32,625 nt of DNA from contig VXME01000143.1 in assembly GCA_009861545.1 (NCBI GenBank), forward strand, positions 1-32,625. The letters are read 5' to 3'. Numbering within the stretch: position 1 is the stretch's first letter; each line of letters begins with the position of its first letter. The stretch comes from Acidobacteriota bacterium (lineage in GTDB: Bacteria; Acidobacteriota; Vicinamibacteria; Vicinamibacterales; UBA8438). A program made the position numbers and the translations under genes. Shown here piece after piece: positions 1 to 24,717 of the stretch. The notes beneath the pieces are model-generated. The model searched no databases. It had not been told where the DNA came from and was given only the letters and a program-made list of their open reading frames with translations.

Positions 1-1931
1 GCCGGCTTGAAGGCGCAGTCGAACACCGGCAGGTGCGCCGGATCCAGATGCGGGGCCTCCTCGATCGTGTCGTGCTCGTCGATGTACTGCACGATGTTGT
101 TGATCTGATCGTCGGGATACCCCAGCCGCGCCAGAGCCACCGGCACCGTGTGATTGACGATCTGCATCACGCCGCCGCCCACGAGCCGCTTGTACTTCAC
201 GAGCGCGATGTCCGGCTCCACGCCGGTCGTGTCGCAGTCCATCATGAAGCCGATGGTGCCGGTCGGCGCGAGCACGGTGGCCTGCGCGTTGCGGAAGCCG
301 TGCTTCTCGCCGAGCTCGACCACGTCGTTCCACGAGTCGGCCGCCGCCTGCTGGAGGTCCTCCGACACATGCGCCCGGGAGACGTTCTTCAGCGCGTCGC
401 GGTGCTTCCGCATGACCCGCAGGAACGGCTGCTCGTTCCTGGCGTAGCCGGCGAACGGCCCGCCGCAGTCGCGCGCGATGCGGGCCGACTGGGCATACGC
501 CTCACCCGTCATCAGGGCGGTGATGGCTGCCGCGTAGTCGCGCCCCTCGTCGCTGTCGTACGGCACGCCGCGCGACATCAGCAACGCGCCGAGGTTGGCG
601 TAGCCCAGGCCGAGCGGGCGGAAGTCGTGGCTGTTGCGCCCGATCGCCTCGGTGGGATAGCTGGCGTTGCCGACGATGATCTCCTGTGCGGTGATCAAGG
701 TTCGGACCGCGGCCCGGAACGTCTCGACGTCGAACTCGCCCGGCTCGTGGGGCTTCATGAACTGCATCAGGTTCAACGAGGCGAGGTTGCACGCCGAGTC
801 GTCCAGGAACATGTACTCCGAGCAGGGATTCGACGCGTTGATGCGGTCCGTGTGCGGACACGTGTGCCAGTCGTTGACGGTGGTGTCGAACTGCATGCCG
901 GGGTCGCCGCAGACGTGCGTCCCCTCGGCCACCGCCCGCATCAGGTCGCGGGCTCGAAGGGTCTCCATGACCCGACGATCGCCGTGGACGGCCCGCGTTT
1001 GCCATTCCCCGTCGTCGACCACGGCGCGCATGAACTCGTCCGGGACCCGCAGGCTGTTGTTCGAGTTCTGGAAGAACACGGAGTTGTACGCCGGGCCGGT
1101 GAACGAGCCGTCGTAGCCGGCGTCGATCAGCGCCCAGGCCTTGCGCTCTTCCTCGACCTTGCAGTTGACGAACTCCAGAACGTCGGGGTGGTCGGCGTTG
1201 AGGATCACCATCTTGGCGGCGCGGCGCGTTTTCCCGCCCGACTTGATGACGCCGGCGAAGGCGTCGTAGCCCTTCATGAACGAGACCGGCCCCGAGGCGG
1301 TTCCCCCACCCGCGAGCAGCTCGCGCGACGACCGGATCGGCGAAAGGTTCGTGCCCGTGCCGGACCCGAACTTGAAGAGCATCCCCTCGGTCCTGGCGAG
1401 CGTGAGGATGGACTCCATCGTGTCCTCGACCGAGTTGATGAAGCAGGCCGAGCACTGCGGCGCCTTCTCGAAGCCGCAGTTGAACCAGACCGGGCTGTTG
1501 AACGCCGCCTTCTGCCGCACCAGGAGGAACTTCAGGTCGTCCCTGAACGCCTGGAGGTCCTCTGCCGTCGCGAAGTACCGCTGCCGGTCGGCCCACCCGG
1601 CGATGGTATCGACCACCCGGCCGATGAGTTGCCGGACGCTCCGCTCGCGATCCGGGGACGAGAGCTGACCCCGGAAGTACTTCGAGACGACGATGTTGGT
1701 CGCCTGCTGGGACCAGAACGCGGGAACCTCCACGCCGCGCTGCTCGAAGACGACATCGCCGCGCTCGTTGGCGATCACCGCCGACCGCGTCTCCCACTCG
1801 ATCTCCTCGAAGGGGTCCATGCCGGCGCGGCTGAACACGCGGGGAAACTCAAGCCCGGTCCCCGTCGGCGTCTCAGGATCCATCGCCGTGGTCGTCCGGG
1901 TCACGTAGTCTTGCGCAGCCCCTGCTGACAT
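1..1931 (-). CDS. nrdJ: Adenosylcobalamin-dependent (class II) ribonucleotide reductase, 5' part
   Basis: Reduces ribonucleotides to deoxyribonucleotides using a cobalamin-generated radical, so it supplies DNA precursors with or without oxygen. The visible 643 residues start at ATG 1931, preceded by a GGGGGAGAG ribosome-binding site, and run off the left edge, so the stop and the C-terminal redox cysteines are not seen. Diagnostic stretches of the long TIGR02504-type NrdJ are present: FNSPVWFNCG, then QCSACFI (C160 and C163), GSGTGTNLSPIR, NPCSEY (C370), SACNLASLNL (C381) and VLAPTGTIGFM. Residue numbers count from this start. The NPCSE cysteine and the PTGTI loop are characteristic of the ribonucleotide reductase active site. 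No NrdB-type small subunit lies nearby, as expected for class II. The gene has its own promoter with NrdR-type boxes. An anaerobic NrdD is unlikely because the B12-type N-terminal motifs are clear. Confidence 0.95.
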   Translation of the reverse strand, partial: MSAGAAQDYVTRTTTAMDPETPTGTGLEFPRVFSRAGMDPFEEIEWETRSAVIANERGDVVFEQRGVEVPAFWSQQATNIVVSKYFRGQLSSPDRERSVRQLIGRVVDTIAGWADRQRYFATAEDLQAFRDDLKFLLVRQKAAFNSPVWFNCGFEKAPQCSACFINSVEDTMESILTLARTEGMLFKFGSGTGTNLSPIRSSRELLAGGGTASGPVSFMKGYDAFAGVIKSGGKTRRAAKMVILNADHPDVLEFVNCKVEEERKAWALIDAGYDGSFTGPAYNSVFFQNSNNSLRVPDEFMRAVVDDGEWQTRAVHGDRRVMETLRARDLMRAVAEGTHVCGDPGMQFDTTVNDWHTCPHTDRINASNPCSEYMFLDDSACNLASLNLMQFMKPHEPGEFDVETFRAAVRTLITAQEIIVGNASYPTEAIGRNSHDFRPLGLGYANLGALLMSRGVPYDSDEGRDYAAAITALMTGEAYAQSARIARDCGGPFAGYARNEQPFLRVMRKHRDALKNVSRAHVSEDLQQAAADSWNDVVELGEKHGFRNAQATVLAPTGTIGFMMDCDTTGVEPDIALVKYKRLVGGGVMQIVNHTVPVALARLGYPDDQINNIVQYIDEHDTIEEAPHLDPAHLPVFDCAFKP

Positions 1932-2048
1932 CTCTCCCCCTGTTGTTGTATCGATTGCAGTGACCGACGCCGGTTCATGGCCGGCTCCAAGGCGGGATGT
2001 CGATACTGGCGAGGTATTCGGCTGATCTCATCCTGCACCGCGATCACG

Positions 2049-2090
2049 TGGGTACAATCCCGCGCGTACCAACGCGCGGGATTGTACCCA
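2049..2090. repeat. 18-bp perfect inverted repeat over the nrdJ start site
   Basis: Arms 2049-2066 and 2073-2090 are perfect reverse complements around the 6-base centre TACCAA. Each arm contains TACAAT, and the one at 2086-2081 is the −10 of the nrdJ promoter. Because the predicted start (about 2074) falls near the centre, the transcript would not contain both arms, so an operator is more likely than an RNA hairpin. It cannot terminate a plus-strand gene because none enters from the left. Confidence 0.8.
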
Positions 2091-2109
2091 GAGGTCACGG
2101 TACTGTCAA
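2081..2109 (-). promoter_or_regulatory. Sigma-70-type promoter of nrdJ
   Basis: On the minus strand TTGACA (2109-2104) is followed by exactly 17 bases and then TACAAT (2086-2081), one mismatch from the consensus hexamers overall. The predicted start is near 2074, giving a leader of about 140 nt before the nrdJ ATG at 1931. The −35 hexamer lies inside the first NrdR-type box and the −10 lies in one arm of a palindrome, so both overlapping elements could block RNA polymerase. Confidence 0.75.
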
Positions 2110-2150
2110 TATGTTGTGTCTGGCTGGCCGCCTAGCCCAACATGTTGAGA
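2104..2150 (-). promoter_or_regulatory. Pair of NrdR-type boxes upstream of nrdJ
   Basis: Two related 16-mers lie at 2104-2119 and 2135-2150. They share 11 of 16 positions, including the core CAA.ATGTTG. Read on the minus strand the first is ACACAACATATTGACA, close to the known NrdR consensus acaCwAtATaTwGwgt. The gap is 15 bp and the centres are 31 bp apart, about three helical turns, which is the arrangement known for NrdR sites that repress ribonucleotide reductase genes. The proximal box covers the −35 hexamer. No nrdR gene is in this window, so the regulator is inferred. Confidence 0.7.
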
Positions 2151-2270
2151 AACTGTGCAACAGCTGTTGATGGGCTGTGGCCGATCCACGTCTCCGTTCC
2201 GGACCGGGTCGTCTCGCCGGCACGTGAGGACCGTAGTAAAGCAGCACCCCACGATCCCCACGGCGGATGC

Positions 2271-24450: not shown

Positions 24451-24717
24451 CTCGAGCAGTTGTTTCAGCGTCATGATCGGCGCCGGCGGCGGCTCGGCTC
24501 CGGGGGCCGCCGCCGGCGCCAGCAGGCCCTCGCGCACCATGTCGGCGAGAAAACGCGTCGGCGAGGATGCGACTCGGCCCCGCGCGTGGCGGCACGATTT
24601 CGGCTACGACGCCGTCGCGGTCCGTCACGAGCACGCGGCGTCGACGGCGGTTGCGGTCTATCCTCCGGTGCGGAATGCGCGTTCTTGCCGTCCCGGACGT
24701 TACACATGCAGTTGCAT
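24451..24717 (-). pseudogene. Decayed VapB/Phd-type antitoxin, running into vapC
   Basis: Fragments in three frames read NVRDGK, then RTRIPH and RVLVTDRDGVVAEIVPP, then FLADMVREGLLAPA and PIMTLKQLLEML. Taken together this is the layout of the antitoxin that accompanies this VapC subgroup. One-base changes at about 24694 and in the AAAA run at 24550-24553 would restore a single frame. ATG 24717 has a GGAAAG ribosome-binding site but meets a stop after five codons; ATG 24707 avoids that. The C-terminal end has no stop of its own and continues in frame into the toxin (LLEMLDE joined to VYIDAS), as if the junction had been deleted. The pair is best read as a dead toxin-antitoxin locus. Confidence 0.65.

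Follow-up and report, generated by a model that had tools for sequence, protein, structure and literature searches.

When loaded with ATP and dATP, the repressor NrdR forms a tetramer that occupies both boxes of a paired operator, bending the DNA and blocking RNA polymerase; ATP alone does not support binding (PMC9110341, PMC12176259, PMC12051234). The spacer between the boxes is usually 15–16 bp, the box centers lie an integer number of helical turns apart, and four NrdRs bind best to operators with spacers of 15–17 bp (PMC12051234). In S. coelicolor, the GC pairs conserved in the boxes are needed for binding, and residues D15 and R17 and a run of four arginines (RRRR) are tied to DNA binding (PMC9110341). 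The position of the boxes relative to the promoter elements varies: in one case, box 2 lies on the −35, and in another, both promoter elements lie downstream of the boxes (PMC12051234).

We examined a window of 32,625 nucleotides, which is contig C143 of a 99%-complete genome (6.35 Mb in 174 contigs) whose nearest named relatives are Acidobacteriota metagenome-assembled genomes, several of them labelled Vicinamibacterales. The closest described system is the nrdRJ operator of S. coelicolor (PMC9110341; PDB ID codes 7p37, 7p3f, and 7p3q). Both loci have two boxes at the promoter of a class II ribonucleotide reductase (RNR) gene, and both genomes encode an NrdR with a zinc ribbon, an ATP-cone, and the DNA-binding residues D15 and R17. 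However, in S. coelicolor nrdR precedes nrdJ in one operon, whereas here it lies on contig C89, away from nrdJ. In Streptococcus pneumoniae, the −35 falls within box 2 at nrdDG, which is also the case in the window, and the boxes at nrdHEF precede the −35, the arrangement of most relatives compared here; however, the spacers of these operators are 24–26 bp instead of 15–16 bp, and the genes belong to classes I and III instead of class II (PMC12051234). The Escherichia coli nrdHIEF and nrdDG operators likewise pair two 16-bp boxes across a 15-bp spacer at the promoter, but they control other RNR classes and are subject to additional regulators, including Fur and Fnr (PMC12176259). A literature search, with most subscription papers outside its scope, found no study of the NrdR regulon in Acidobacteria.

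The nrdJ promoter, its paired boxes, and the repressor gene

The gene downstream of the boxes is the 5′ part of nrdJ (2–1931, minus strand; an open frame with its ATG at 1931). Profile searches assigned it to the class II (adenosylcobalamin-dependent) RNRs, as an earlier sequence-only reading had proposed, with matches to PF08471 and PF02867 and with NF005122 and TIGR02504 above cut-off. The contig edge truncates nrdJ in the window, and its missing end is probably the start of contig C171. Searches of the genome found no second class I/II large-subunit gene (PF02867) and no class III RNR (NRDD/nrdD), so that no RNR catalytic gene other than nrdJ was detected. No ATP-cone was present in the window’s part of NrdJ or in a near-complete NrdJ from a congener. 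An additional nrdJ-like gene, 69–74% identical to the query part, occurs in two of the congeners (G003:C54:18524-19303, with its upstream region in L079, and G001:C133:36321-37133, with its upstream region in L080); by eye, neither copy has an NrdR box pair upstream.

The near-consensus promoter TTGACA-17-TACAAT that the same reading had described spans 2109–2081 on the minus strand, upstream of the ATG at 1931. Its −35 hexamer, TTGACA (2109–2104), and its −10 hexamer, TACAAT (2086–2081), are 17 bp apart and together match the consensus at 11 of 12 positions. No other sigma-70-like match lies between positions 1800 and 2400, a span in which shuffles gave an expected count of 0.1. The spacing falls within the 16–18 bp of sigma-70-type hexamers, and in relatives, the hexamers are mostly 17–18 bp apart. 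The three congeners have CATCAT or CATGAT where the window has TACAAT. Transcripts from sigma-70-type promoters begin about 7 nt past the −10; we place the predicted nrdJ start at ∼2075, 6 nt past the −10, which would give a leader of ∼144 nt (1932–2075, minus strand).

Two 16-bp boxes lie at this promoter on the minus strand: the distal box 1, TCTCAACATGTTGGGC (2150–2135), and the proximal box 2, ACACAACATATTGACA (2119–2104), 31 bp from box to box with an intervening spacer of 15 bp (2120–2134). Box 2 ends in the −35 hexamer, which makes up its final six bases. Both boxes keep C4 and G13 and are palindromic with an AT center, and they deviate in their outer bases, with TTGGGC and TTGACA in place of TTGTGT. 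They match a symmetric consensus built from the relatives, ACACAATATATTGTGT, which agrees with the NrdR consensus. The promoter and boxes described in the sequence-only reading are confirmed.

We scored the pair with an asymmetric matrix trained on 66 pairs, all from outside the genus. The window pair reached 16.0 bits on the minus strand, where it was the best pair of the intergenic region, and none of 5,000 shuffles of that region attained this value (top shuffle, 12.5 bits). Read on the plus strand, the pair scored higher with this asymmetric matrix (25.6 bits), which we attribute to the TGTCAA created by the −35 and not to an inverted operator. With a symmetric matrix, the pair scored 36.1 bits, whereas nothing in 400 kb of this genome scored above 5.1 bits. 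We also searched all 6.35 Mb with a degenerate pair pattern, allowing at most one mismatch. At a spacing of 31 bp, it matched the window site alone; at 32 bp, it gave one unrelated match with one mismatch, a yield equaled by the reversed-pattern control. Within these limits (spacings of 31 and 32 bp, one mismatch at most), no other credible pair occurs in the genome, and the search offered no credible second NrdR target. The nrdR locus (L001) contained no box pair, and a single-box match at C141:6136 was rejected since it falls within a large open frame.

The genome carries a single nrdR, the gene whose presence the sequence-only reading had made a check on its proposal. By profile search, its product has both a zinc ribbon and an ATP-cone; it scores 186.8 bits against TIGR00244 (cut-off, 124.65), matches solved NrdR chains, including 7p37 from S. 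coelicolor, with E values of 2e-34 or better, and contains D15, R17, and the RRRR run.

As a whole, the locus is best explained as an NrdR operator fused to the nrdJ promoter that would confer dATP-dependent repression, a reading to which we give a probability of about 0.88. With plentiful dATP, NrdR would be loaded with ATP and dATP and would assemble into a tetramer, setting one zinc-ribbon dimer on each of the two boxes, which lie about three helical turns apart. The bound repressor would bend the DNA and occlude the −35, so that RNA polymerase would be excluded and nrdJ transcription would fall. When dATP drops, NrdR would leave the boxes, and the near-consensus promoter would fire. In this scheme, the nucleotide switch, tetramer binding, bending, and repression are carried over from published NrdR work to a promoter, boxes, spacing, conservation, and gene content established by computation. 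Because NrdJ is without an ATP-cone, no cone-mediated inhibition by dATP is expected; NrdR is therefore the likely dATP sensor and probably the main site of dATP feedback on NrdJ.

Conservation of the pair and its register relative to the −35

We compared the regions upstream of nrdJ in 78 loci, consisting of the window and 77 loci from a genome collection, nearly all from Acidobacteriota. The best pair had a spacing of 31–32 bp in 74 of them (32 bp in 61 and 31 bp in 13). In Markov resamples of these regions, strong pairs were few, and spacings of 31–32 bp were not favored. The box pair is thus kept in relatives, a comparison on which the sequence-only reading had staked its proposal, and the paired NrdR operator at nrdJ is real and conserved, a further case of a known kind. 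Between the boxes (L083–L162) lies another conserved element, TGnCCTAAAA, with CTAA present in 48 of the 65 spacers outside the genus; the window’s genus has lost it, and it may act in DNA bending.

For 76 loci with a pair at 30–32 bp, we measured the offset from the start of box 2 to the start of TTGAC. In 65 of these, TTGAC begins 22–26 bp past the start of box 2. In this common register, box 2 ends 6–10 bp ahead of the −35, and the pair stands 12–16 bp further upstream than in the window’s genus. An offset of 10 bp was found in exactly four loci, the window and its three congeners, so that all four members of the genus place TTGAC identically with respect to box 2. Six loci had no TTGAC in the searched range after box 2, and L138 was scored at 17, yet its sequence has TTGACA at 24. 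DnaA-box-like words also appeared near the pair: in the three congeners (L083–L085), TTTCCACA precedes box 1 by 11–22 bp, and a weaker TGTTGCACA occupies the matching place in the window (2154–2162). Such words occur in just 9 of the 76 loci overall, and we therefore make no claim for DnaA.

Cover of the −35 by a box is specific to the window’s genus (four of four members) and therefore cannot be NrdR’s general mode at nrdJ in the order. Judged by the register outside the genus, which leaves the −35 free, occlusion of this element is not a conserved requirement. In the common register, NrdR would act from just upstream, by a bend or by contact with polymerase. The interpretation offered by the sequence-only reading is supported in silico by the presence of nrdR and the conservation of the pair, but the overlap behind its prediction of direct repression is confined to one genus, and most loci leave the −35 free. 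For the window, repression by cover of the −35 is plausible, and the placement of box 2 on the −35 has a published precedent at S. pneumoniae nrdDG (PMC12051234).

Alternatively, NrdR may bind the pair and repress because it bends or wraps the promoter DNA, with the −35 overlap in the genus being incidental. This is a variant of the operator–promoter explanation and does not exclude it. The placement of the pair upstream of the −35 in 65 of 76 loci at the same 31–32-bp spacing argues for it, as does the sharp 180° turn of the DNA in the S. coelicolor NrdR–DNA structure (PMC9110341). However, the overlap in the window is exact, and direct cover is its simplest reading. We rate incidental overlap as possible, although well short of even odds.

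The relationships among the NrdJ proteins bear on how the genus came by its register. In a tree of 45 rows, the four sequences with an offset of 10 bp formed one clade (support, 100/97), which is nested in an 11-row clade (100/99), and none of these 11 has the common 22- to 26-bp register. Read by eye, the sister genera (L089–L091, L086, L088, and G005) tentatively carry their boxes near the −10 or the start, with some partner boxes weak and the promoters themselves assigned by eye. In L102, elsewhere in the tree, box 1 lies between TTGACA and TACTGT. The genus register may have arisen by loss of the bases that separate box 2 from the −35: a 14-bp deletion from the TTG of box 2 to the TTG of the −35 would convert a register of 24 into one of 10. 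This is not the only route; the sister genera appear to have other registers. A more inclusive account, which we consider doubtful, would have the same pair, at the same gene and the same 31- to 32-bp spacing, moving along the promoter within one family, so that it precedes the −35 in some members, covers it in others, and in others again lies on the −10 or start, with NrdR repressing through the bend and not through cover of any one element, and with a second control based on a palindrome over the −10 possibly added in the window’s species.

A palindrome over the −10, the leader, and the divergent gene

The sequence-only reading missed a perfect inverted repeat with 19-bp arms and a 4-nt loop (2049–2090) that spans the −10 and the predicted start. 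Its upstream arm includes the −10, and its center falls close to the predicted start, so the nrdJ transcript would not include the full hairpin. No perfect hairpin with a loop of up to 12 nt and arms of more than 12 bp was found in 400 kb of the same genome, which makes a chance origin unlikely. The exact 19-bp arm has no other copy in the genome, nor one with fewer than three mismatches, and a dispersed repeat or mobile element was rejected on this ground; the one match on a viral contig is a single arm without a partner. The repeat is absent from the three congeners and from the other relatives examined. The congeners show a similar core at this spot, flanked by short stems: CCGTTGCCATACGG and CCCGTTGGATACGGG, compared with CGCGTTGGTACGCG in the window. 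Elsewhere in the window lies a second long perfect inverted repeat (24479–24520), with 15-bp arms and a 12-nt loop.

We lean modestly toward a mutational origin of the palindrome with no settled function. Template switching, a mutational route to palindromes, is one example, although the template arm cannot be named since neither arm equals the congeners’ sequence. It is also possible that the palindrome is a second operator, and a further regulator may thereby act at the −10. Carried further, this would mean that the NrdR boxes are real but that another dimeric regulator on the 42-bp palindrome exerts the main control of nrdJ, with NrdR only tuning it. The perfect 19-bp arms at the −10 and +1, far longer than those of the perfect hairpins in the 400-kb sample, speak for this reading. 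We nevertheless consider it improbable: the arms are longer than those of usual operators, no second copy exists in the genome at fewer than three mismatches, the three congeners do not have the repeat, and there is no candidate regulator.

Since a class II RNR requires adenosylcobalamin and the leader is ∼144 nt long, a cobalamin riboswitch or another RNA switch might control nrdJ in place of NrdR. This is very unlikely, and we rejected it: at gathering scores, neither the window nor any of 20 relatives matched an Rfam model; at E values up to 1, the search returned nothing credible, with the cobalamin riboswitch models unmatched; and the leader folds no better than its shuffles (z score, 0.25). 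That the boxes are chance AT-rich dyads at an unregulated promoter is scarcely credible given the shuffle result, the 36.1 bits against a 400-kb background of 5.1, and the conservation of the pair in relatives, which refutes it.

On the other side of the intergenic region, a divergent CAAX-protease-like gene (PF02517) begins at an ATG at 2283. An extended −10, TGCTAGAGT, stands six bases before this ATG (2268–2285), which suggests that the transcript is leaderless. Similar TGnTAnAGT-ATG arrangements occur in some relatives.

Meaning for RNR control in Acidobacteriota

Leaving aside the palindrome, the finding in the window is itself ordinary and well explained. Its wider value lies in the comparison, which places NrdR control of what is apparently the sole RNR in these Acidobacteriota on a firm footing. 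The relatives also provide a natural series of operator positions at constant box spacing, which could be used to separate occlusion by NrdR from bending.
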